In this document: piece after piece, positions 50,001 through 63,790 of the stretch
Layout of the letters: each line of letters begins with the position of its first letter
How positions within the stretch are numbered: position 1 is the stretch's first letter
Assembly (NCBI GenBank): GCA_025617745.1
Contig: CM046862.1
Coordinates: 54,427,597 to 54,491,596 of the forward strand
DNA length: 64,000 nucleotides
Reading direction: 5' to 3'
Origin: Heliocidaris erythrogramma
Taxonomy: Eukaryota; Echinodermata; Echinoidea; Camarodonta; Echinometridae
The notes under the pieces: generated by a model
Told to the model about the DNA's origin: nothing
Databases searched by the model: none
What the model saw: only the letters and a program-made list of their open reading frames with translations
Program-made: the position numbers and the translations under genes

Positions 50001-53000
50001 TCTAACAAATTATGCATTGTATTGAATTCTAAACTCCTCTTCTCTATCATGCTTTTAGAACTTGTTGTCAGTGCTTCAACCGGTTGGCTTACTGGAGGAT
50101 CTACACATGGGGGTCAAACGCACTTTCAGTATGGAAGACCTAGGAGGAGAGTTATCTGATGAAGGTATTGTGTATCAAGTTTTATATCTGTGTATTTTAA
50201 CCTTTTAGTCACTAAAGAAAAGGAACCGGGACTGGCCTTCTTATTACTCACTAAACTGCCTGGGACTGCTCGTGGACTTGACCCGTGACACACTACAGCA
50301 AATGTATTGTAAGGGATATCGGGCGCTGAAGCTTTGTGTGTGCTATCTTTACACGTAAGCCATTTAGAATCTGCTTTGAAGCGATGCGTTACTGTGGAAA
50401 GATTTTGCGTACAGCAGAGAGTCTATGCCGCAAGATGGTTTACTGAGACTGAGTTCAGTGGGTAAATGACTACAATATGCGTCATCCTCAGTGACTAAGA
50501 GGTTAAATATTCATGTAGTTATTGCATACTATAATGTTCATCATCAGGATATAAAAGTCAGAGACGATAAATTGATACAAACTTGAAGAGCACTGACTTC
50601 ACATTGTTGTACATTCACATCACATGCTTCAACAACAGCCGATTGACAGTCAATTTCTTGCAGCATTTAACCCATAGTCTGGGGGAACTGGGTGGATCCT
50701 GTATTAAGGCTATGAGAGTTAAAGAATTCAGTAGTCAACGGGTTACATGCCCAACTCTGGAGCAAACACTATACCTACATATAACTTTAGCTCTAGCCCT
50801 AATTGTAACCTGCAATCCACCTGCAACCTTATACATGCCCCTATATCTTTAAAGCCCACCACACACTATAATATCGTTCCGCGGTCCGATTTCGGAAGGA
50901 AAGGACATTTAAACACATATGTTTGATTGAGGTTCTGAATAGTCAAAGCAAAGTTGAATTACTGCCTATTGCGAGCTTTCTAGTCGGAGGAAAGGCCTTA
51001 TCGCTGTGAGTCGTAGTGACGTCTGGGCAGTCCTACGATTGTCTACGATTTGAAACTGATGTGGCCCTTATTCCGGGTATAAGGCTGACAGCCCACCCAA
51101 ACCCTATTTATAGTATTCATATCATTGTTCACAACCTGAATCAGGTAGGTTTTATTTGTTAAAATGCGCATATTTATAGCTATCGCGATTTATTTCGAAA
51201 ATTGGATCGCAGTTGATCGTGTAGTGGAGCAAGTGTCGCCGAAGCTAATGTCGGGGGCGTTTCATCAAGTGTTTTGTCAGTGATTTTTACCGACAAATTT
51301 GCTCTCCGCCAATCAGATGCAAGGATTTCAGTATTGCAACATGTCATTGGTGACAAGTTTTATGAAACGGGGCCAGATCACTTCCTTACCCTTCCCTCCC
51401 GTCACAGATCCGACCATTCTTCAAGACATCCAGTCACTCCAAGAATGCATCCATCTCCTGTCATCCTCCTCCGTTGCCATGGAGATGCAGAGCTTCACAG
51501 ACTCCCTGATGCAGCTGCAGAGGCCGGTGGACGTGGCCCAGAAGCTGGCGAAGAACAGCAAACTCCTCATGCAGGATGGGTAAGCAGAGGGGTTACACTT
51601 TACTTTTTGGATGATATATATATATATCATACCTGCCAACTCTTACGATTTGGGCGTAATTATTACGATTTTTTATTGTATATTACTCCTTACGACTTTG
51701 TATCACAAAATTACGATTTTCTGAATAATGTATGGTTGTGCGAACTTATACTACGTAGATACCCTACAACTACCTTATCTTGTCTATGTGCACTGTTCAT
51801 GCTTACATGTACAATGTATACGAAGCAACGGTGTGAGAACAAACAGTGTACATTGCCAAGATAACATACTGTGCAGTGAGTCCATGTTATGCATGATGGC
51901 AGTGCACGATTGTGCTATCGCGAGATAGGGAAATCACAGCCCCTAATAACCGTCATTTGTCCTCTGAGAACTGATTATAAATTTCACAAATGAGTCCAAA
52001 TGGAATATCATCGCTATTTTTCATGATTCAGGTGAGAGAGAATGTCTAACTTGTTCGCTAATGTGTTGAAATATTCTGTTGAAAAATCCCTGCTGGAATT
52101 CACTTTCCAGCAGGAATGGGAGACATTCTTCGCCATCACCAGCGGCCTAGATTATTGGTAGTGTGGTGGGTATATTGCTTTCTACTCTTTAGTTACTTTA
52201 TCTTGGGGTGTTTGAATTTAGCTGTGGTTGACTACATGCGATCAGGGAATTCCTGGAATGTTATAGAATTGAGATAAAGTAATTTTCCCTACCATTCTAG
52301 CTTTTTCATATCTAACCAAAAAAAAAGAACAATTATTTTTGTAATATTAGGGTTCAAAAACATGGTAAATGGTTTCAAAATAAGGCTGTGATTGCATTTG
52401 GGAGCATCTAGAACTCCAGAGCTTCCCGGGCCCTAAGGCGGGCCCTGGACCCCGTCCAGAAGGGACTTCGCGCTCGTCATGTGCGCTTTGCGCACATTAT
52501 GTCCCCCCTCCCCCCACAAATAAATATTACTCTTTTTGGTCCTCAAAGGTTGGCAGGTATGATATATACGTTATATATTTTGATACGATTGATATGCTTT
52601 AAAGACCCATTTCACAGAATTAACCTATTACTCTTGCTTTAAATGACTGAAGTGATATTGTCTTATATTTCTCTTTTCTTTTTTTTTTTGTTAATGACTT
52701 GTAGGTCTCAAAGCCAGGCCATGAGGGAGCAGGTTACACAAGCCCTAGGTAGAATTATGGATCCCATGGGTGTCTTCAGAACTGTTCTCCATGTCCTTGA
52801 TGTAGCAGAGGGTGAACCAGAGAGCCTACTTGCTGAATTGAGTAAGTAGAAGAGAGAGAGCCTACTTGCTGAATTGAGTAAGTAGAAGAGAGAGAGAGAG
52901 AGAGAGCCTACTTGCTGAATTGAGTAAGTAGAAAAGAGAGAGAGCCTACTTGCTGAATTGAGTAAGTAGAAGAGAGAGAGCCTACTTGCTGAATTGAGTA

Positions 53001-53528
53001 AGTAGAAGAGAGAGAGCCTACTTGCTGAATTGAGTAAGTAGAAGAGAGAGAGCCTACTTGCTGAATTGAGTAAGTAGAAGAGAGAGAGCCTACTTGCTGA
53101 ATTGAGTAAGTAGAAGAGAGAGAGAGCCTACTTGCTGAATTGAGTAAGTAGAAGAGAGAGAGCCTACTTGCTGAATTGAGTAAGTAGAAGAGAGAGAGCC
53201 TACTTGCTGAATTGAGTAAGTAGAAGAGAGAGAGCCTACTTGCTGAATTGAGTAAGTAGAAGAGAGAGAGCCTACTTGCTGAATTGAGTAAGTAGAAAAG
53301 AGAGAGAGCCTACTTGCTGAATTGAGTAAGTAGAAGAGAGAGAGCCTACTTGCTGAATTGAGTAAGTAGAAGAGAGAGAGCCTACTTGCTGAATTGAGTA
53401 AGTAGAAGAGAGAGAGCCTACTTGCTGAATTGAGTAAGTAGAAGAGAGAGAGCCTACTTGCTGAATTGAGTAAGTAGAAAAGAGAGAGAGAGAGAGAGAG
53501 AGAGAAAGCCTACTTGCTGAATTGAGTA

Positions 53529-53564
<36 letters not shown>

Positions 53565-56500
53565 GGGGAAGAAAATAAATGAAGAGGTTAAATGGAGAGA
53601 CAGATATACGTTGGTATCTGAGAGAGAGAGAGAAAGAGTGAGAGGAAAGGAGAGACACATTTTAGGGGGGGGGGGGTAGGAAATTGAGTAAAAAGAAAGT
53701 GAAGCATAGAGCATGCAACTTTTGGGGTAATTGTAAATTCATCACAATATGGCTTTGCTGTATTCATGTTTGTTTGTTCACTGTATTTCCTTTCTCTGTC
53801 AAAGAACCATTAATCTATCTTTGCCCCAAAACATTCCCGGTTAAGATGAATAGTATTGTTTAATGTGGTTTACTTTTCAGATCATCTTGGACCAGATGTG
53901 TTCCATAGTCCCACACACCATACTCTGAGTAGTGATCTTTCAGTGGTGTGTCTGGCTGCAAGCTTTGCCAGATTCTCTCAGACGAGGCTGGAATTCATGC
54001 AGATTCTTCTGGTTCTGGAGTGTCTGATCCTGAGACTAGAATCACAGGTCAGTATCTGACAGAGTTGAAGACTAATACCTGCATGAAGGTTTGGATCTAG
54101 GATCTGTGAAGGTACCTTTTTTTTGTTGAAATTTTGAAAAGGCATGGGGAGGGGTGGGGACACATTTTTGAGGTTGTGTACTTCAGATAATCGAAATGGG
54201 TTTTAAGTTTTAAGGGGGAGGGGGGTGATTCATTTGTCTCTCCACCCCCTCCCACCCCCCCCCCCCCCAAAAAAAAAAAGAAAAGCTGCCAGTGCCTTCG
54301 TGTGGATAAATGTTTTATGATATTTCGTGCGAGTATGCAAAAATTGTTTGCATGCACAGGGTACTTGTAAGTGCGTATAACCCCTAGTGCTAATACCAAG
54401 TGTCAAAGACTTCAGGAACAAATAATACCAAAGGTAAATTCTCTTATTTGATCGTATTTGAGTTGCCAGGCTTATCCCATCTCTATCTTCTATGGACTAT
54501 TGAGTGTACAAAAAAGTTAACATGTCATGTGATAATGTACCTTTCTTATTTATTTCATCACTCTCATCCCATCTCTAGCTTCCATAGACTACTGAATCAC
54601 CAAGAAGTTGACCTGTTAAATGATACTAGTCTTACTCACTCATACCACTCTCATCCCATCTCTAGCTTCCATAGACTACCGAATCACCAAGAAGTTGACC
54701 TGTTAAATGATACTAGTCTTACTCACTCATACCACTCTCATCCCATCTCTAGCTTCCATAGACTACCGAATCACCAAGAAGTTGACCTGTTAAATGATAC
54801 TAGTCTTACTCACTCATACCACTCTCATCCCATCTCTAGCTTCCATAGACTACCGAATCACCAAGAAGTTGACCTGTTAAATGATACTAGTCTTACTCAC
54901 TCATACCACTCTCATCCCATCTCTAGCTTCCATAGACTACCGAATCACCAAGAAGTTGACCTGTTATATGATACTAGTCTTACTCACTCATACCACTCTC
55001 ATCCCATCTCTAGCTTCCCAGGACAGCTGAATGTACTAAGGAATTAATCTGTGATGTGATACCATTCTTATTTATTTCACCACTCTTAATCCCATCTCTA
55101 GCTTCCCTGGACAGCTGAATGCACTAAGAAGTTAACCTGTGATGTGATACCATTCTTATTTATTTCACCACTCTTATCCCATCTCTAGCTTCCCTGGACT
55201 GCTGAATGCACTAAGAAGTTATCCTGTGATGTGATACCATTCTTCTTTATTTCACCACTCTTAATCCCATCTCCAGCTTCCCTGGACTGCTCGTTGCACG
55301 AAGAAGTTATCCTGTGATGTGATACCATTCTTCTTTATTTCACCACTCTTAATCCCATCTCTAGCTTCCATGGACAGCTGAATGCACTAAGAAGTTAACC
55401 TGTGATGTGATACCATTCTTATTTATTTCACCACTCTTATCCCATCTCTAGCTTCCCTGGACAGCTGAATGCACTAAGAAGTTAACCTGTGATGTGATAC
55501 CAATCTTCTTTATTTCACCACTCTTATCCTATCTCTAACTTCCATGGACTCTGAATGTACTAAGAAGTTAACCTGTGATCTGATACCATTCTTATTTATT
55601 TCACCACTCTTATCCCATCTCTAGCTTCCATGAATGCACTAAGAAGTTATCCTGTGATGTGATACCATTCTTCTTTATTTCACCACTCTTATCCCATCTC
55701 TAGCTTCCCTGGACTGCTGAATGCACTAAGAAGTTAACCTGTGATGTGATACCATTCTTATTTATTTCACCACTCTTAATCCCATCTCTAGCTTCCCTGG
55801 ACTGCTGAATGCACTAAGAAGTTAACCTGTGATCTGATACCATTCTTATTTATTTCACCACTCTTATCCCATCTCTAGCTTCCCTGGACTGCTGAATGCA
55901 CTAAGAAGTTATCCTGTGATGTGATACCATTCTTATTTATTTCACCACTCTTATCCCATCTCTAGCTTCCCTGGACTGCTGAATGCACTAAGAAGTTATC
56001 CTGTGATGTGATACCAGAGACATGCACCATTCTCCATGCCTACCATTCCCTAGTGTGGGTCTCTACCTGTGTGTCTAGCCCCATCCAGACAAAGACTGTG
56101 TAAGTATCAAATATGAAATATGTAGAATTATTGACCCTCAAATGTTTTCCACCACAATTTATTAAAGATAATGATTAGTTCTAGCGTTGAAAAGGAAATT
56201 TGAATGAAATTTGTTGAATACGTTACAAATTATATGCCCCATTCCTTCACACATAGAAGTTACGTCTAAGCCAACCACAGAATTTATTTAACATTTCACT
56301 TAAAGATACAGTTGAGTTCTGGTCATGCAATTACATTGTGAAAGAAACTTGGAAAAGATTGACCATGTTTACTGAAGAGTTGGTGTATATTGTGAGGTTT
56401 TTGAATCATCAAAGATATTGACCCAATCTCGCTGAAAAGCAAATGTACTGCACACAGAAATGGGTATATGGGACTACACACACAAGTGGCATGAATGTTC

Positions 56501-59500
56501 GGCCCAAAATTTCAGCTATTTCTAGTCCTATTTTGAATATGAGGGCATTTGAAGAGCAATACTTTTCAGAGGATTTTTCTACTATGATGTTATTCCAAAC
56601 TGACATAACAGGAATGAGAAAGCTCACAAATTATTTTTCACCTTTTTCCAGAACTCAACCTTCCCTTTAAGAAACAGAGAAAACTTATCACCAATTATTT
56701 TCTTTCTCTAGGGAATTTCATCTCAGACAGATGGCTGTACTTGAAATCTCCCAAAATAGTCCCTCCAAGCTTACAGGTCAAACCTCCCTATCTTCAACAT
56801 TGACCAGTCCACCTTCACCAACCCTTGTAGAGCTGTTTCTGCAGGGGAGTGGAGGGAGCTACGTCCGTTCCATTCTGGCCAAGAGGGCAAACAGGAGAGC
56901 GGAGGGACTGCAGGACTGGGGGAAATTGTACCCAGCTGCAATGAAGGCAGTTGCACAGCTTATGTATCCTTTGTGTTATAGACTCAGGGTTCACGCGGTT
57001 ATAGAAAAATAATTTTAAAAAATCTACCAAAGACATGGAAAGTCATTGAAAAAGAAAAAAAGAAAGAAATTGAACGTGGGTGTGACATAATATATATTAC
57101 TGCTTGCTATTCGTACGCCACTTGGATGCCGCGACCCATACCAAAATGGTACTTACGTAGTCACGGAAAGTCACAGAATTTGGTTCTCAAATATCTCTGT
57201 GAACTCTATGGCCCGTATTCTGAACTACGGTTTAACTTAAACCATGGTCTAAATGTGTGGTTTAACTATGGGCAGCCAAATGTGACACAAATCTCTAACA
57301 GTAGATATCCAATTTATCAGCATTTTTCGTACTTAAACTATTAAAAACTGTCTGGGAATGGTAAGTACAATATTTTTCATGACCGTTAAAGCATGAGACC
57401 AGAATCCAGTAAAAATAAGGAACATACAATATAAGCAAAGTTTAGACATTTTTGGCTACCCATAGTTAAACCACACATTTAGACCATGGTTTAAGTTAAA
57501 CCGTGGTTCAGAATACGGGCCTATGACTGCTACTGTGGGGAAAGGCTTCCTTGATATCAAGAGGATTTCAATGACGGCAGAAAAATGAGAAAATTAAAAT
57601 CTTGAGTTTTGAAGATTCTTGTACAGACAGGGACCTCTGTGATAACTCTTGCAAACTACTCTGTAATATGTGTATTTGCTTGACCTTTTGACCCTGAACA
57701 GATGGCCAATCAGTGCTAACTTCCTGTTTGCAGAATACCTGATGACCAAATGCCAATACACCCAACTGCAGGTAAGGCAACTTTTATGGACCTTAACACC
57801 AAAATTCTACTGAAGATATGTCTGCCTCTCTTTTCCAGGGATGGCAGCATCGTCCAGTTCTACAATTTAAATAAATCTTGATATTGAAGGATGTTTTGAG
57901 CCCTGCAATCGGGGAAAATGCCCGATTCCTTTTAAAATTTGTTGAAAGGTTTGCGATAGCGTTTACCCCAACAAATTGTTTTTAGAACTGACACTCCCAT
58001 ACTATTCTTCTTCTTCTTACTCAGGGTTACATTCGTCTTCTATCACCATGGTGCGAATGGAACGCTGCTTCCCGTCAGTTCCTCCTGGCCCATTGCTACC
58101 TGAACGCTGGAGAACCTATCAAAGCCTTGGGGTGCTTCCAGGAGGCTAGTCAGAGGATCGGGGCTGAGGATTTTCTACTGAACAGACTTCTCAGGACTAC
58201 AGAACTCCAGGGAAAGAAACTAGAGACGCTCTATCATCTGAAGGTAAGTGGAATGATAAAAAAAGATAACGAGAGAGAAAGAATGTGTAAAGATACCGAG
58301 AGAGAAAGAATGTGTAAAGATACCGAGAGAGAAAGAATGTGTAAAGATACCGAGAGAGAAAGAATGCGTAAAGATACTGAAAGAAAAAGAATGTGTAAAG
58401 ATACCGAGAGAGAAAGAATGTGTAAAGATACAGAGAGAGAAAGAATGTGTAAAGATACCGAAAGAGAAAGAATGTGTAAAGGTACCAAGAGAAAGAATGT
58501 GCAAAGATACCGAGAGAGAAAGAATGTGTAAAGATACCGAGAGAGAAAGAATGTGTGAAGATACCGAGAGAGAAAATGTGTAAAGATACCGAGAGAGAAA
58601 GAATGTGTAAAGATACCGAGAGAGAAAGAATGTGTAAAGATACCGAGAGAGAAAGAATGTGTAAAGATACCGAGAGAGAAAGAATGTGTAAAGGTACCGA
58701 GAGAGAAAGAATGTGTAAAGGTACCGAGAGAGAAAGAATGTGTAAAGGTACCGAGAGAGAAAGAATGTGTAAAGATACCGAGAGAGAAAGAATGTGTAAA
58801 GATACCGAGAGAGAAAGAATGTGTAAAGATACCGAGAGAGAAAGAATGTGTAAAGATACCGAGAGAGAAAGAATGTGTAAAGATACCGAGAGAGAAAGAA
58901 TGTATAAAGGTACCGAGAGAGAAAGAATGTGTAAAGATACCGAGAGAGAAAGAATGTGTAAAGATACCGAGAGAGAAAGAATGTGTAAAGATACCGAGAG
59001 AGAAAGAATGTGTAAAGGTACCGAGAGAGAAAGAATGTGTAAAGATACCGAGAGAGAAAGAATGTGTAAAGATACCAAGAGAGAAAGAATGTGTAAAGAT
59101 ACCGAGAGAGAAAGAATGTGTAAAGGTACCGAGAGAGAAAGAATGTGTAAAGGTACCGAGAGGAAAAGAATGTGTAAAGGTACCGAGAGAGAAAGAATGT
59201 GTAAAGGTACCGAGAGAGAAAGAATGTGTAAAGATACCGAGAGAGAAAGAATGTGTAAAGATACCGAGAGAGAAAGAATGTGTAAAGATACCGAGAGAGA
59301 AAGAATGTGTAAAGATACCAAGAGAGAAAGAATGTGTAAAGGTACCGAGAGAGAAAGAATGTGTAAAGATATACAGGTTGAGTGGAGGATAGGAGAGATT
59401 TTGAGAGAGACAGACAGAGAAAGAAGGGCCTAGGGTACTTTCAAGAAGCTTGTCAAAGAATAGGTGCTGGGGACATTTTGTTGAACAGATTTTGTAGACC

Positions 59501-62500
59501 ACAGAACTCTGGAGAAAGAAATTGGAGCCGGTGTACCATCTAAAGGCAAGTGTAAGGGTGGAAAATGTACAGAATATGAAACAGAATCGGTTAAGATTTT
59601 GAGAGAATGATTAAACAGACATTTCAGACATTTCCTCCTACAGGATAGAGAAGATCAAGATCGAAAGAAAGAGAGAGAGAGTGAGGGATGAAAAGAAAGC
59701 AGGTATTTTTGCTAAGGACAGGGTGACTTGACATTAGCTCCGGCAAGAACTGTTGTGTGCATTAATTTGTCAAGATATATAGGGTTAGGTTTGCGGTTTG
59801 GTTTTAGGCTGAGTTTGGTCCAGGGGAGCGTTTCATCAAGCATTTTGTCAGTGATTTTTACTGACAAACTTGCTCTCAGCCAATCAGATGCAAGGATTTC
59901 AGTAGCTTATAACAGTTATTGCAACTTGTCATTGATGATAAGTTTTATGAAACAGGGCCCTGGGGGGCTTTTCATCAAGTATCTTGTCAGTGATTTTTAC
60001 TGACATATTTGCTCTCGGCCAATCAGATGCAAGGATTTCAGTAGCTTATAACAGTTGTCGGTAAAAATCACTGACAAAACACTTGATGAAACACTCTGCA
60101 GGTTTGAGGTTGGGTATTTGATTAGTGTATGAAATTGACTGCTATAAGCATGTGTCGCACAATCTAGGAATCGGCTCTGAAGGACCTGTAAAAGTGGAAA
60201 TTTTCATGCGAATAATTTTTAGTGCTCAGCCGAGTAAAGTGAATCTCGCGTGTTTTTACTTTCACCGATGCACTAGTCTCACTGGCACAAAGTTGCATAA
60301 ACATTATTCACTCGATTTTATTTCAAAATACGCAAAAATTTCCAAACCGCCGATTATTCCACATATACAGTATTAAGAATGCCCCATCAAGAAGTTAGAG
60401 AGATTGCGGGATCGATGGGAATTTCAGATGAGACAGTTTTAATGTTTTAATTCCCCTCTCTTTTTTCCAGGTGATTGGTCTATTAGAGCAGTTTGAGTTG
60501 AGTGAGCTAGTGATCTCTCTTGCTAAAACAGCACTCAGTGCTGCTGATATAGATGACCCAAACCTGGTAAGTATATTCTTAATTTTCTTTCATTCTTTTG
60601 TATTTATTTCCTTTTCTCTCTTTTTGCCACTGTATCTTCTTCTTTCTTTTTGCCACTGTATCTTCTTCTTTCTATCATCACTTTTATTTGTTGTCCATTT
60701 TTCCGTTGCTTTTTGGTGTGTCCTTTATTTTTTTCTGTTCTTTTATCTCTATCTTTATTTACTTTCGGAGGCATCTTTTTCCATATACTTACATTTTATG
60801 TTTCTGTTAGTATTATCCATTGAATTTTGCTTTGGATTATTATTTTCCTCTTAATGTTTTCCTTTATCAGATGTAGATATGGTGTTGAGAATTAAATCGT
60901 GTTATAAAACAGGTTCAAGACTGTAGCCATCCTGATTGGTCAAATAACACCACGTGACCGTGCAAAAAAAAGCAGTAACGCACAGCAAAAAGGCTCTAAA
61001 GCACGCCTGAGCTGCGCGTACTGTGCAAACTTAAAACGCAATGAAATTGCGTAGTTTAATTGTCATTTTAGCGCAGGGATTACATGCGCGCACTGAAACG
61101 CGCATGACTTTTGTTGGCTGCGCTTATGTGATGTCATCCAGGAAAGTAAATGATAGCCTCCATGACTGTGTGACTATTGGTGTTTCTATGGGGTTCGTAA
61201 CCATTTTTATAGACTTCATAATCATATTGCCGACCCATTTTATAAAACTATTAATAGATGGTTGTGAGTTTGTGCGATCTGGCAACACGCAGGTTTTTAT
61301 TGGGTGTCCAACACACTCGGCTTGCGGCTCTTGCGTAATAGTACACCACGATAAAAACCTTTGTGTTGCCAGATCGCACCAACGCACTCCCAACCATGTA
61401 TTAACAGTATATTAATATCTTAAATTCATTATTACGTGATTTATATGAATAATCTATACTATTATTGACAATATATTTGCTAACTCCTAAATTTGATGAT
61501 TAAGTCAATTATTTTGCTAAGAACAAACCAGTTTTGACCAAAATACAATCCGATATATTTTCTATAACATGTTTTAAAGTGTTAATTTGGCATTTTTTTT
61601 TTCTGCCTCGCATCGTACCCTTGGGTGAAGATCTTTTTTGAAATTTTATTATTTTCTTCCTTATGTTTACAGCCCACACTCTGGGTCAAGATCTTCAAGT
61701 ACCACCTAGAGCTGGGACACAATGATGAAGCCTACTCAGCTATGACCTCCAACCCTGACCCTGAAAGGTAAGAGGTCATAGGTTAAACCATAAATTTGAT
61801 GAAAATTACTCCTGATATTGAAATATCTTGACAAATCTTGTGACTTGCTTGTCTAGCAAGTGCATTTGTCAGCCCAAATGTGTCAGCAAAAATGTTGGCA
61901 GCAGAAGTCATGACTGGGTTTGACGTGAGAGTTTGAATTTCCAAGAAGAGGTGCCGTGCATTTGAGCATCATTACTTTGACCGTGAGAAAGAAATAATGG
62001 CTCATGCATTTCACCTTACCCAACATTAGGTAGGGAAATTAATAAATAGATATAGTAGAATATTTTGTCAACAAATCAATACAACTTCAATATTTTTTTC
62101 TGTCTCCATGAATGTTGACAAAAAGCCTGTAGAAAACTAATGCTAATATATATTTACATATTTTAGGAAAATCCTATTTTTTTTCTGCTTAAACAGTTAT
62201 AGTATAGTAAACAGGTTTGATATAATTGGTGTCCATTTGTCTTCTATTTCATGTGCATTGTTCTCGGTGATGGGAGATGCTTTATGACTTCTTGTGTTGT
62301 TTGTTACAGGCGGAGAGATTGTTTGCGTCAGTTTGTGGTGGTCTTGTGTGAGCAGAAACAGATGAAGCAACTCTGTCAGTATCCCTACATCGATCTACAT
62401 GATGAGGTAAAATCATATGCATCTTGGTTATGAAATGGGTCCTACAGATGGAGTTTTTATCTTTTGGTTTGATGGTTATCCTGATATTATTATTAATATC

Positions 62501-63029
62501 AAATAAAAGCTTACAAATAGCTTAGATTAAAGATATACAGAACCTTCTTGTTTTGCGCTCACCGGAGTAAAATGCAAGCATGAATAGGCTTGCATTTCCT
62601 GTGATGAGTACAAGATGAAAAGCTCGTATCTCTTTGATGAAACCTCTTCTTCGATCGTGCACTACAAGAAAGTGTAGAAATGTACAATGGGAAGACAAAA
62701 TGTGAATTTATTTACAAACGAACAGACTCAAATTAGTTTTCTCTTCTTCCCACCTCCTTCATGTTGAAATTAATTTATCCCACATGTGGTTTTTGTTTAA
62801 GTAAGATCATTCCATTATTGGAAATGTGGATGATGCGAACTTCTTGACCATCCTATTTTTAAATTTTGTAGAATTTTTCTACTTCTTTATATGTTCTTTC
62901 TATTTTTGTTTTGCTTTGTATAGATTGTGAGCATCATAGAGTCCAGAGCTAGGTCTGTGGATCTTCTTACGATCAACTACTATGATCTGCTCTTTGCATT
63001 CCATACCATTAGGGGGAACTACAGACAAG
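32712..63029 (+). CDS. NUP160: NUP160, nuclear pore Y-complex scaffold (exons 1-24, 3' end outside)
   Basis: Twenty-four exons join in one frame (3,250 nt, about 1,083 codons), and every donor/acceptor pair matches in phase. The protein follows vertebrate NUP160 in order. The N-terminal beta-propeller covers about residues 1-450 (DSAGGF, NRFIYW, VHRL.FPHP, DHKLR.WS) and is followed by the helical stack (GYIRLLSPWCEWN, LNAGEPIKALGCFQEAS, IESRARSVDLLTINYYDLL). By family knowledge NUP160 is a large Y-complex subunit joining NUP85/SEH1 and NUP96/SEC13 arms in the nuclear pore rings, needed for pore assembly and mRNA export. Vertebrate proteins are about 1,430 residues, so roughly a quarter lies beyond the right edge. 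Intron 1 is 8.1 kb and full of palindromes; several exon borders carry tandem arrays. Confidence 0.95.
33160..33870 (+). repeat. Single copy of the arm sequence of the 35.9-37.2 kb palindrome
   Basis: Matches the left arm 35885-36558 closely. Both strands are open over about 100 codons, as in the other copies. Preceded by TAGCCAGGATTAG. Confidence 0.75.
33891..35000. mobile_element. 1.1-kb palindrome, TAGCCAGGATTAGC termini
   Basis: The arms 33891-34391 and 34498-35000 are near-perfect inverted repeats around a spacer of about 106 bp. The termini read TAGCCAGGATTAGC, followed by TTCGTGAATGTAG and an A run. Foldback element. Confidence 0.85.
35345..35482. repeat. 138-bp near-perfect palindrome with ACGT core
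   Basis: The left half reads CTACGAAGACCTGGAAGGGC and onward; the right half is its complement, centred at about 35413 on repeated TACGTACG. A short open frame ends within it but shows no domain. Confidence 0.9.
35818..37868. mobile_element. Composite element with two internal palindromes, CCAGGATTGGC termini
   Basis: Bounded by CCAGGATTGGCTTCGTGAATG and its complement near 37868. It holds a palindrome at 35885-37243 (arms 674 and 668 bp, 17-bp spacer) and another at 37308-37803 (arms 232 bp, 32-bp spacer). The second is a diverged relative of the 33891-35000 arms. Confidence 0.75.
38189..38280. repeat. 92-nt near-perfect hairpin 1
   Basis: Inverted arms of about 40 bp starting ATATAGTCGTGGTTGAGG, with a loop of about 10 nt. 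The size resembles a microRNA precursor, but it is also the size of a tiny foldback repeat. The arm motif recurs at 33064. Confidence 0.85.
38352..38436. repeat. 85-nt near-perfect hairpin 2
   Basis: Same arm sequence as hairpin 1 (TAGTCGTGGTTGAGGAAACC) with a different loop. Confidence 0.85.
39427..39965 (-). repeat. Degenerate fourth copy of the palindrome arm
   Basis: Reverse-orientation match to the right arm 36576-37150 with many changes. It shares the stretch ATTGGCCGATTTTAGTCT and ends near TGTAAACAAC. Confidence 0.65.
40898..41009 (+). CDS. NUP160: NUP160 exon 2
   Basis: Acceptor TTTCATGCAG, donor TG|GTAAGA, phases 1 to 2. Encodes the conserved DSAGGF...NRFIYW stretch at the start of the propeller. 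Confidence 0.92.
41010..41655 (+). other. NUP160 intron 2 with GA microsatellites
   Basis: GA dinucleotide runs at 41041-41104 and 41325-41342. The serine/leucine-rich frames on the opposite strand are low complexity. Confidence 0.8.
41656..41863 (+). CDS. NUP160: NUP160 exon 3
   Basis: Acceptor CCATTAG, donor CAG|GTAAGC, phases 2 to 0. Encodes VELVESSLNHNL and VHRLPFPHP, propeller blades well conserved with vertebrates. Confidence 0.95.
41905..42080. mobile_element. Foldback element, GGTGTTTCATGAAGC termini
   Basis: The ends GGGTGTTTCATGAAGCTGTT and AACAGCTTTATGAAACACCC are inverted repeats about 130 bp apart. Lies in NUP160 intron 3. Confidence 0.75.
42361..42400. repeat. Exact 20-bp tandem duplication
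   Basis: TCCACAGGGAGAGACTAACT occurs twice in direct succession in intron 3. Confidence 0.95.
42585..42816 (+). CDS. NUP160: NUP160 exon 4
   Basis: Acceptor CTATCAG, donor AGAG|GTAAGA, phases 0 to 1. Encodes ASTDLASIFAD and GDGEAWFALSV, matching the SSDGEALFALP blade of vertebrate NUP160. Confidence 0.95.
43048..43126 (+). CDS. NUP160: NUP160 exon 5
   Basis: Acceptor TGTGCAG, donor AAG|GTTGGT, phases 1 to 2. Encodes ESSIMERLWTGLVPSAIR, matching the vertebrate SSVMQRLLTGWMPTAIR. Confidence 0.95.
43244..43625. mobile_element. TTAA-type non-autonomous element, copy 1
   Basis: About 380 bp in NUP160 intron 5; ends TTAAAGATAAAG and CAACCTTCCCTTTAA. Related copies at 46367-46740 and 56300-56670. 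Confidence 0.7.
43715..43848. mobile_element. TTTCATAAAACTTG-type foldback element
   Basis: Inverted ends around CCAATCAGATGC-like core sequence in variant form (GATTGGCTAATAGC). Same family as 51250-51375 and 59825-60105. Confidence 0.6.
44297..44411 (+). CDS. NUP160: NUP160 exon 6
   Basis: Acceptor GTTTATAG, donor AAG|GTAATG, phases 2 to 0. Encodes CRDHKLRIWSCK, the DHKLR.WS blade signature. Confidence 0.95.
44663..44827 (+). CDS. NUP160: NUP160 exon 7
   Basis: Acceptor CTCTTCAG, donor CTG|GTAAGT, phase 0 to 0. Encodes a propeller segment (HEIRVIQGSTPSSLTLGVYL). Confidence 0.93.
44828..45591 (+). other. NUP160 intron 7
   Basis: Holds a short GGGTTAGGGTTAGG tract at about 44950 and a degenerate repeat at 45100-45215 related to that at 21755. 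Otherwise nothing is recognised. Confidence 0.6.
45592..45767 (+). CDS. NUP160: NUP160 exon 8
   Basis: Acceptor ACGCTGCAG, donor AAA|GTGAGT, phases 0 to 2. Encodes LYHVTTLDDVKGQTLVDFTM and a following VVAMWG strand. Confidence 0.93.
46209..46293 (+). CDS. NUP160: NUP160 exon 9
   Basis: Acceptor TCCTATAG, donor AGG|GTAAGC, phases 2 to 0. Encodes GWQPVYLE and ends in FLDPR, like the vertebrate DQDPR. Confidence 0.93.
46367..46740. mobile_element. TTAA-type non-autonomous element, copy 2
   Basis: Inverted subterminal AAAGTTGAGTTCTGG and CCAGAACTCAAGATT. Lies in NUP160 intron 9, in the same orientation as the other two copies. Confidence 0.75.
47020..47520. repeat. TCTCTCCC polypyrimidine tract
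   Basis: About 500 bp of TC/CTCC simple repeat directly upstream of exon 10, merging with its acceptor. It opens long serine/leucine/proline frames in all three forward frames, none of them a gene. Confidence 0.95.
47526..47594 (+). CDS. NUP160: NUP160 exon 10
   Basis: Acceptor AATAACAG, donor CAT|GTGAGT, phase 0 to 0. Encodes ESYLDHIFKPGRFSFQTIL, matching the vertebrate YLQSLFTPGQF. Confidence 0.93.
47664..48271. mobile_element. TTAA-type foldback element, 608 bp
   Basis: Perfect ends TTAAAGGCCAAGTCCACC and GGTGGACTTGGCCTTTAA. Arms of more than 220 bp are almost exact complements. A related but different element is partly present in the gene B tandem units. Confidence 0.9.
48272..48826 (+). 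other. NUP160 intron 10, right part
   Basis: A palindrome-like GCGAAAATAT...GCGAAAATAACAGCG segment lies at about 48480-48790. No gene is seen. Confidence 0.45.
48827..49036 (+). CDS. NUP160: NUP160 exon 11
   Basis: Acceptor ATCTACAG, donor CAA|GTGAGT, phase 0 to 0. Encodes the start of the helical region, including EYRQLVEQSMSKFLACC (vertebrate EFWCKFYACCLQYQ). Confidence 0.94.
49454..49519 (+). CDS. NUP160: NUP160 exon 12
   Basis: Acceptor CTTTTCAG, donor AGA|GTAAGT, phase 0 to 0. Encodes PLGLFLDCNTHMPCLIKR, matching PLALHLNPHTNMVCLLKK. Confidence 0.94.
49720..49926 (-). mobile_element. tRNA-derived SINE
   Basis: On the minus strand a tRNA-like head (GATGGCTCAGTGGT, then CCCGGGTTCGAAACC) is followed by a body with GTGGATGCGCTAGTGCCC and TTTGGTAAGGCATTAATCC. 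This fits a tRNA-head SINE; the family name is not assigned. Lies in NUP160 intron 12. Confidence 0.75.
50059..50164 (+). CDS. NUP160: NUP160 exon 13
   Basis: Acceptor GCTTTTAG, donor GAAG|GTATTG, phases 0 to 1. Encodes LQPVGLLEDLHMG and ends in an acidic GELSDE stretch. Confidence 0.92.
50165..51250 (+). other. NUP160 intron 13
   Basis: No RNA gene or clear mobile element was recognised in this intron before the element at its right end. Confidence 0.5.
51250..51375. mobile_element. GGGGCGTTTCATCAAG-type foldback element next to exon 14
   Basis: Inverted ends GGCGTTTCATCAAGTG and AGTTTTATGAAACGGGGCC. The core includes CCAATCAGATGCAAGGATTT. It ends about 33 bp before exon 14. Confidence 0.75.
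51408..51579 (+). CDS. NUP160: NUP160 exon 14
   Basis: Acceptor CCGTCACAG, donor GG|GTAAGC, phases 1 to 2. Encodes helices DIQSLQECIHLLSSSS and VDVAQKLAKNSKLLMQD. Confidence 0.94.
51623..52566. mobile_element. TIR element, CATACCTGCCAAC termini
   Basis: 18-bp perfect inverted ends TATATCATACCTGCCAAC and its complement, 944 bp apart, in NUP160 intron 14. No transposase frame is seen. Confidence 0.8.
52705..52841 (+). CDS. NUP160: NUP160 exon 15
   Basis: Acceptor GACTTGTAG, donor TTGA|GTAAGT, phases 2 to 1. Encodes GRIMDPMGVFRTVLHVL. Its last 25 bases and donor are the founder of the array that follows. Confidence 0.93.
52842..53530 (+). repeat. 5' splice-site minisatellite, 18 further copies
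   Basis: A unit of about 36 bp containing GCCTACTTGCTGAATTGA|GTAAGTAG repeats 18 times after the exon's own copy. All retain GTAAG; the last lacks the TAGAA. GA runs follow to about 53570. Confidence 0.95.
53881..54047 (+). CDS. NUP160: NUP160 exon 16
   Basis: Acceptor ACTTTTCAG, donor CAG|GTCAGT, phases 1 to 0. Encodes VVCLAASFARFSQTRLEFM and LLVLECLILRL helices. Confidence 0.94.
54494..55965 (+). repeat. 3' splice-site minisatellite, about 17 copies before exon 17
   Basis: 87-bp units, each with a pyrimidine tract, ATCTCTAG|CTTCC acceptor and about 50 bases matching the start of exon 17. Five nearly identical left units (54579-55013) form one subfamily; eleven right units are closer to the real exon. 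Because 87 is divisible by three, the left subfamily makes a long open frame with a 29-residue repeat. Confidence 0.95.
55966..56099 (+). CDS. NUP160: NUP160 exon 17
   Basis: Acceptor ATCTCTAG, donor TGT|GTAAGT, phases 0 to 2. Encodes LPWTAECTKKLSCDV and ILHAYHSLVWVSTCV. Only this last unit of the array continues into unique coding sequence. Confidence 0.92.
56300..56670. mobile_element. TTAA-type non-autonomous element, copy 3
   Basis: Ends TTAAAGATACAGTTGAGTTC and GAACTCAACCTTCCCTTTAA; about 40 bp before exon 18. Confidence 0.8.
56712..56963 (+). CDS. NUP160: NUP160 exon 18
   Basis: Acceptor TTTCTCTAG, donor AT|GTATCC, phases 2 to 2. Encodes SPPSPTLVELFLQ and DWGKLYPAAMKAVAQL, matching SSPQTIVELFF and the LNWPEMITAI region of vertebrate NUP160. 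The donor is the weakest of the gene, but only it restores the conserved Trp-Pro across the junction. Confidence 0.92.
57210..57521. mobile_element. GGCCCGTATTCTGAA-type foldback element
   Basis: Perfect ends GGCCCGTATTCTGAAC and complement with arms of about 75 bp containing GGTTTAACTTAAACC-type internal palindromes. NUP160 intron 18. Confidence 0.88.
57702..57771 (+). CDS. NUP160: NUP160 exon 19
   Basis: Acceptor CCTGAACAG, donor CAG|GTAAGG, phases 2 to 0. Encodes WPISANFLFAEYLMTKCQY, matching WPSNPGCLFLECLMGNCQY. Confidence 0.95.
58025..58243 (+). CDS. NUP160: NUP160 exon 20
   Basis: Acceptor TTACTCAG, donor AAG|GTAAGT, phase 0 to 0. Encodes GYIRLLSPWCEWN and LNAGEPIKALGCFQEASQRI, among the best conserved parts of the helical domain. 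Confidence 0.96.
58262..59375. repeat. 27-bp minisatellite, about 41 copies
   Basis: Unit ATACCGAGAGAGAAAGAATG plus TGTAAAG, with AGATACC and AGGTACC variants. Since 27 is a multiple of three, frames on both strands stay open for hundreds of codons; these are not genes. NUP160 intron 20. Confidence 0.97.
59432..59545 (+). pseudogene. Decayed partial copy of NUP160 exon 20
   Basis: Aligns along its length with the 3' half of exon 20: GYFQEACQRIGAGDILLNRF against GCFQEASQRIGAEDFLLNRL, followed by a frameshift. The donor has become AAAG|GCAAGTG. It sits just beyond the 27-bp minisatellite, so exon and minisatellite seed were duplicated together. Confidence 0.85.
59825..60105. mobile_element. 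Two adjoining GTTTCATCAAG-type foldback copies
   Basis: Repeated GTCAGTGATTTTTACTGAC, CCAATCAGATGCAAGGATTT and GGCTTTTCATCAAG segments in tandem and inverted form. Same family as 51250-51375. Confidence 0.8.
60471..60566 (+). CDS. NUP160: NUP160 exon 21
   Basis: Acceptor TTTTTCCAG, donor CTG|GTAAGT, phase 0 to 0. Encodes VIGLLEQFELSELVISLAKT, matching the vertebrate VIGLPELVIQLATS. Confidence 0.95.
60567..61672 (+). other. NUP160 intron 21; partial palindrome
   Basis: A T-rich stretch lies at 60580-60850. An inverted repeat at about 61263-61382 is formed by GTGCGATCTGGCAACAC and its complement. No gene is seen. Confidence 0.6.
61673..61767 (+). CDS. NUP160: NUP160 exon 22
   Basis: Acceptor GTTTACAG, donor AAG|GTAAGA, phases 0 to 2. 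Encodes WVKIFKYHLELGHNDEAYSA, matching IFKHHLDLGHNSQAYEA. Confidence 0.95.
62310..62406 (+). CDS. NUP160: NUP160 exon 23
   Basis: Acceptor TTGTTACAG, donor GAG|GTAAAA, phases 2 to 0. Encodes CLRQFVVVLCEQKQMKQL and YPYIDLHDE, matching CLRQLVVVLCERSQLQDL. Confidence 0.96.
62924..63029 (+). CDS. NUP160: NUP160 exon 24 (last in window)
   Basis: Acceptor TTTGTATAG, donor CAAG|GTTAGT, phase 0 to 1. Encodes IESRARSVDLLTINYYDLL and ends near NYRQ, matching IIESRARAVDLMTHNYYELL. The next exon lies beyond the window. Confidence 0.95.
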
Positions 63030-63790
63030 GTTAGTTGTCCTTTTCTTTGTCTGTGTGTATGTCTGTCACGATGTCCGTCTGTCCCAATCTCTATCTCATC
63101 TCTCTCTCTCTCTCTTGATCATTCTCTCTCTTCTCACCATCAACTACTATGATCTGCTCTTTGCATTCCATCCCATTAGGGGAAACTACAGACAAGGTTA
63201 GTTGTCCTTTTCTTTGTCTGTGTGTATGTCTGTCACCATGTCCGTCTGTCCCAATCTCTCTTTATCTCTCTCTTTATCATTCTCTCTCTTCTTACCATCA
63301 ACTACTATGATCTACTCTTTGCATTCCATCCCATTAGGGGAAACTACAGACAAGGTTAGTTATCCTTTTCTTTGTCTGTGTGTATGTCTGTCACCATGTC
63401 CGTCTGTCCCAATCTCTCTTTATCTCTCTCTTTATCATTCTCTCTCTTCTTACCATCAACTACTATGATCTACTCTTTGCATTCCATACCATTAGGGGGA
63501 ACTACAGACAAGGTTAGTTGTCCTTTTCTTTGTCTGTGTGTATGTCTGTCACGATGTCCGTCTGTCCCAATCTCTATCTCATCTCTCTCTCTCTCTCTTT
63601 ATCATTCTCTCTCTTCTCACCATCAACTACTATGATCTGCTCTTTGCATTCCATCCCATTAGGGGAAACTACAGACAAGGTTAGTTGTCCTTTTCTTTGT
63701 CTGTGTGTATGTCTGTCACAATCTCTGTCTATCTCTCTCTCGACCATTCTCTCTCTTATTCTCTCTCTTCTTATTTATTCAATGAAATCA
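63030..63790 (+). repeat. Exon-24 3' end plus donor in tandem, 4 further copies
   Basis: Units of 158-167 bp carry the last 60 or so bases of exon 24, the GTTAGT donor and a TC-rich stretch. Donor GT positions are 63030 (real), 63197, 63355, 63513 and 63680. The copies lack the exon's 5' half and an acceptor AG. Confidence 0.95.

Follow-up and report, generated by a model that had tools for sequence, protein, structure and literature searches.

A 36-bp minisatellite repeats the 5' splice site of a NUP160 exon in the sea urchin Heliocidaris erythrogramma

NUP160 and its arrayed exon

We analysed a stretch of 64,000 nucleotides from the H. erythrogramma assembly GCA_025617745.1 (contig CM046862.1, positions 54,427,597 to 54,491,596 of the forward strand), referred to here as the window. 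The gene in it is NUP160, as the first-pass annotation had proposed. The PF11715 profile (Nup120/160 propeller) exceeded its cut-off at four places in the genome, two in each of two gene copies, while weaker matches elsewhere stayed below it. Once joined, the peptides of the exons matched the Nup160 chains in the PDB with E-values down to 5.6e-111. Our exon model holds 26 anchored exons and starts behind the N-terminal ones; exon numbers are ranks among the anchored exons, by which the exon numbered 15 in the first-pass annotation comes tenth. The following exons (window positions) are discussed below:

52705..52841, + strand: arrayed NUP160 exon, tenth of the 26 anchored, 137 nt, last bases AATTGA before the first GTAAGT (open frame, phase, flanked by recognised NUP160 exons)
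53881..54047, + strand: next NUP160 exon (exon model)
62924..63029, + strand: NUP160 exon further downstream, likewise with an arrayed 3' end (exon model, comparison of exons with the gene region)

The peptide of exon 52705-52841 was unrecognised by itself: a search together with its neighbour gave no match, and domain 4 of the structure-chain search scored 1.5 bits. We assigned the exon to NUP160 because of its position, its phase and its conservation in the other gene copy; its acceptor and donor are in phase with the modelled exons on both sides. The model has weak points elsewhere. The 11th and 12th anchored exons do not match in phase, and the donors modelled for exons 4 and 12 are doubtful. 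Exon 9 probably begins elsewhere than modelled, since the start given in the model lies in a dispersed repeat (91% match over 43 bases, 8 kb off). The idea of a pseudogene was unsupported, with the coding anchors open. A further exon, ending near 56963 (window 56941-57720), is readable as CTTAT|GTATCCTTT, with CTGAACAG as the acceptor that follows and ends at 57701. Both gene copies share this donor stretch, which presumably resembles a U12-type donor.

A 36-bp array of exon end, donor and intron start

The core CCTACTTGCTGAATTGA is present 19 times from 52825 to 53509 (exact-core count), with successive spacings of 36, 46, 38, 36, 36, 36, 36, 38, 36, 36, 36, 36, 38, 36, 36, 36, 36 and 56 bases. 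Tandem Repeats Finder (TRF) placed the repeat at 52819-53488 with a period of 36, 18.2 copies, 94% matches and a score of 1189, which rules out a chance origin. It also reported a higher-order period of 182 bp, equal to five units, which suggests growth by exchange of larger blocks. The array comprises:

52819..53488, + strand: 36-bp minisatellite, copies 1-18, made of exon 3' end, donor and intron start (TRF score 1189; 18 cores with GTAAGTAG)
53489..53540, + strand: GA tract and degenerate 19th copy with GTAAGAAA (sequence)

As in the boundary-spanning minisatellites known as mirages, the unit straddles the exon-intron boundary and the splice signals are kept: GTAAGTAG directly follows the core in 18/19 copies, the last core is followed by GTAAGAAA, and GTAAG is present in 19/19. 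Thirteen of the 18 unit-to-unit segments are identical, and the other five vary in the GA-rich stretch behind the donor. The motif AGAGAG occurs twice at a distance of one unit length, in the exon (CCAGAGAGCC) and again right after the donor in the intron (GAAGAGAGAG).

Reading on in frame from donor 1 gives TTG AGT AAG TAG, so that any later donor leads to the same stop, and the open frame ends with LLAELSK. The repeated 5' splice sites behind the exon, their retention in nearly all copies and the premature stop that follows from a downstream donor, all put forward in the first-pass annotation, were thus confirmed.

The arrayed donor and its predicted hairpin

The copies had also been described as strong donors, which holds for one side of the site. 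The intron side is ideal (GTAAGTA) and the exon side (TGA) is not, and the arrayed donor ranked fourth lowest of the 25 modelled donors in an ad hoc score. Two of the three donors scoring lower, those of exons 4 and 12, belong to doubtful models.

Folding predicted that the donor is buried in a hairpin:

52826..52849, + strand: predicted RNA hairpin, exon arm CUACUUGCU paired with donor arm AGUAAGUAG, 9 pairs, one of them G-U (folding; recurs in every GTAAGTAG copy)

The predicted minimum free energy is -11.8 kcal/mol for 40 nt around the donor. The mean predicted probability of being unpaired over donor positions +1 to +6 is 0.00, the lowest of the 25 donors, with 0.01 for the next. When the 61-nt stretch around the donor was shuffled, 4 of 200 shuffles were as stable (z -2.40), which is suggestive but falls short of proving selection on this predicted structure. 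The other NUP160 copy predicts the same hairpin, and neighbouring array units are predicted to pair with each other. We rejected the hairpin as the selector of donor 1: it is alike in all intact units and therefore leaves the choice of the first donor unexplained.

Other arrays in the same gene

Each of the 26 modelled exons was compared with the gene region. For 3/26 the exon 3' end is repeated in the next intron, in each case up to the last base of the exon. In the same comparison, none of the exon 5' ends lay in a tandem array. Exons 5 and 26 gave weak, distant matches. Besides the 36-bp array, the features concerned are:

62962..63773, + strand: 158-bp array of five units (the exon's own included), made of 68 nt of exon 3' end, donor GTTAGT and intron (TRF, exon comparison)
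58262..59371, + strand: 27-bp array of 41 units directly behind the donor of another NUP160 exon (TRF; 60 units in the other copy)
59433..59545, + strand: decayed copy of the 3' half of exon 58025-58243, 73% over 114 columns, donor now GCAAGT (comparison; behind the 27-bp array)

GTTAGT is kept in all five units of the 158-bp array, and the other NUP160 copy has a single unit. The matching motif here is shorter (TCTTCT), which counts against an origin by slippage between such motifs. The 27-bp array, adjoining a decayed exon end and common to both copies, is older; the exon-end remnant is shorter in the other copy. An 87-bp array of 17.8 units (window 54471-56016) lies in the intron after exon 53881-54047, in both copies.

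A second NUP160 copy with a single donor

A whole-genome search with the array unit returned one further site, at 54849548-54849597 of the same contig. The site belongs to a further copy of NUP160, oriented like the first and offset by about 367-375 kb. Here the unit stands once at the exon end, ahead of a GA/G tract; one donor is present and the array is missing, so the two assembled copies differ in donor-unit number by 19 vs 1 between alignable flanks. The exonic motif of the other copy is AGAGAA, one base off AGAGAG, which counts against a birth of the array by slippage.

The copies were compared over 25/26 anchors (two of them shortened), the one left out being the seventh anchored exon, which falls inside a stretch of 2500 N in the other copy, possibly a gap or withheld sequence. 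Over 1025 codons we found 12 amino-acid differences (dN 0.006, dS 0.056, dN/dS 0.11) and, in the arrayed copy, nothing that would disable the coding anchors compared. The window copy is thus unbroken over these anchors, which supports a tolerated array, and judged by its sequence the second copy is apparently intact too.

Divergence between the copies is strongly mosaic: across 48 bins it varies between 0 and 85 substitutions per aligned kb, with a dispersion index of 20. This fits retained alleles or haplotypes as well as a duplication with exchange. Five 160-base samples taken between the two blocks gave only self matches in three cases and repeats in two, and the profile PF04121, which we take to be NUP107, had four matches, all on one stretch. 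We lean towards two haplotypes that were both retained in the assembly. On its left flank, the window copy carries a 0.7-kb insert (L012:5292-5999) that is 98-100% identical to many places in the genome and absent from the other copy; by its sequence it is probably a young mobile element.

Donor arrays elsewhere in the genome

We searched the genome for three AGGTRAGT at short spacing and used the reversed octamer as a control. Since matches inside one array overlap, triple matches are not independent events. AGGTRAGT has 51,596 sites and 98 triple matches (0.19%), the control 93,418 sites and 241 triple matches (0.26%). Donors as preferred birthplaces of arrays were therefore unsupported: control triples are at least as frequent per site, and the donor arrays speak for tolerance but for no donor preference. 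Having no AGGT, the array in NUP160 lies outside this pattern. A looser pattern, GTAAGT three times, gave 789 matches, with many simple repeats among the matches listed.

By hand count the 98 triple matches make up 12 arrays, and the 5' flanks were read for 11 of them. In four of these 11 (C1, C2, C11, C12) the exon end is copied into the array together with the donor; the best alignment scores were 27, 41, 24 and 21, each above all 200 shuffles. The host genes are a C2-domain gene (PF00168), a glycogen synthase (PF05693), a Rap1 Myb gene (PF08914) and a gene with a membrane-helix exon. The first three passed the Pfam cut-off, and the membrane-helix exon had no family above it. At C10 and C18 the array begins at an apparent exon donor, with scores of 9 and 6 vs shuffles up to 11 and 12. 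At C4 an exon (AIG1-like, PF04750) has its donor about 40 bp ahead of the array (score 8, shuffles up to 13). No exon was recognised by eye in the 5' flanks of C3, C9, C16 and C20.

The 48-bp donor unit of the C2-domain gene (C11:36809500-36810000) stays in frame over 16 codons, and later donors would lengthen the protein without a stop. At C16:42860280-42860780 a 45-bp tandem unit of TTCTTACAG, 17 bases and GTAAGT is repeated many times and reads as if a 17-nt microexon had been repeated with both of its splice sites. Near-twin donor arrays lie at C10:19213514 and C10:19411924, 198 kb apart, and are perhaps another block duplicated side by side.

Discussion

The sequence points, with a probability of about 0.66, to a young mirage that was born by slippage between AGAGAG motifs, whose first donor is mostly used and which has no function of its own. 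The first duplication would have come from slippage or unequal exchange between the exonic and the intronic AGAGAG, possibly helped by the hairpin-forming unit, and exchange of larger blocks would then have lengthened and homogenised the array. In splicing, the 137-nt exon would mostly be defined with donor 1 while donors 2-19 are removed with the intron; leakage to donors 2-19 would yield messages ending in LLAELSK and a stop, open to decay. Exon definition and a growing exon length should favour the first donor, and here the exon would grow from 137 to 821 nt from the first donor to the last. First-donor use is not assured, because the donors do not differ from one another, they are separated by purine tracts and, according to PMC5585400, an enhancer that lies between two competing donors promotes use of the downstream one. 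Published mirages are reported to splice regularly, which in our analysis tips the balance towards use of the first donor.

The same enhancer effect would serve a reading in which the downstream donors are substantially used and most messages of the arrayed copy carry the AGTAAGTAG extension. The arrayed NUP160 would then be a hypomorph, tolerated since the protein comes from the copy or allele with one donor. An apparently intact second copy exists, as this reading needs, two donor arrays sit in one gene copy, and among the identical donors the 30 nt upstream hold one GA hexamer for donor 1 and 5-8 for donors 2-19. Yet the compared coding anchors carry no disabling change at a dN/dS of 0.11, splicing at the late donors implies exon lengths of up to 821 nt, and the published mirages are described without splicing disturbance in PMC3087553 and PMC3902484. 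We regard a hypomorph as rather unlikely.

It is very improbable that the array is an assembly artefact, a collapsed or expanded repeat. Near-identical units and higher-order blocks do assemble poorly, and the amphioxus globin paper reports a mirage mis-assembled in a draft; however, the GA lengths vary between the units in an ordered pattern, the last copy is degenerate and the same class of array occurs at several other loci. Even less credible, if by little, is a functional poison switch in which donor number sets the share of NUP160 message that is destroyed. Every extra donor does lead to the same stop, and the arrayed donor is predicted to be the most buried of the 25 modelled. Against such a switch, the array is absent from the other NUP160 copy, similar arrays sit at unrelated genes, and the 48-bp unit of the C2-domain gene reads in frame, so that stops are not common to such arrays.

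The first-pass annotation regarded many equal donors beside an exon of an essential gene as unusual. Its account of the gene, the repeat, the retained donors and the premature stop stands, but the inference of an essential gene uniquely burdened is weakened. A second, apparently intact copy has one donor, and the same layout recurs at another NUP160 exon and in four other genes. The unique burden is further weakened by the amphioxus repeat class, reported without splicing disturbance.

The presence of this layout in at least five genes speaks for tolerance, and the arrays may supply raw material for new introns or longer exons. With many identical donors in one transcript and a one-donor copy within the assembly as control, NUP160 lends itself to a clean natural experiment on how a 5' splice site is chosen. 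As a tentative and rather doubtful generalisation, donor arrays would be recurrent and tolerated outside cephalochordates, and the 1- and 19-donor NUP160 copies, possibly alleles, would form a natural dose series; it would show an animal spliceosome choosing the first among many identical donors buried in hairpins, contrary to the expected preference for the intron-proximal one.

Comparison with known systems

Among the papers searched, none dealt with NUP160 together with a minisatellite, and the mirage papers found (PMC3087553, PMC3902484) concern amphioxus.

Intron gain by tandem duplication of AGGT (the Rogers model; potato RdRp, PMC4974935) is alike in that a splice-signal sequence is tandemly duplicated inside a gene. 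We rejected it as an account of the NUP160 array: the unit has GAGT (it carries GAGTAAGT) and extends into an existing intron, and no new intron was seen. Human segmental-duplication genes have variable internal tandem repeats whose units average about 30 bp and which in some cases lie at exon-intron boundaries (PMC2812944). These too are minisatellites that vary between near-identical gene copies, but there they reportedly give rise to new introns or altered transcripts.

The closest likeness is to the amphioxus mirages, described in PMC3087553 and PMC3902484 for Adh3, the globins BflGb6 and BflGb9 and troponin C, with similar repeats in PGBD5. Mirages are minisatellites spanning exon-intron boundaries, with units of 10-160 bp and haplotypes of 6 and 3 units (PMC3087553). 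For Adh3 and the globins, RT-PCR was taken as regular splicing, with cryptic-site use held possible (PMC3087553), and the Adh and troponin C mirages are stated to produce no aberrant mRNAs (PMC3902484). Unlike them, the array described here lies in NUP160, repeats a 36-bp unit 19 times, involves an exon 3' end and has its donor in a predicted hairpin. Boundary-spanning tandem units with their splice signals kept are common to both. The copy number varies between haplotypes there and between two assembled gene copies, alleles or paralogues, here (19 vs 1). Amphioxus has many GFP genes and a genome about half the size of this one (1.06 Gb); a GFP-family search of the present genome had no match, and neither had its controls. 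On this comparison the NUP160 array probably belongs to the mirage class, and a host outside cephalochordates may be new.
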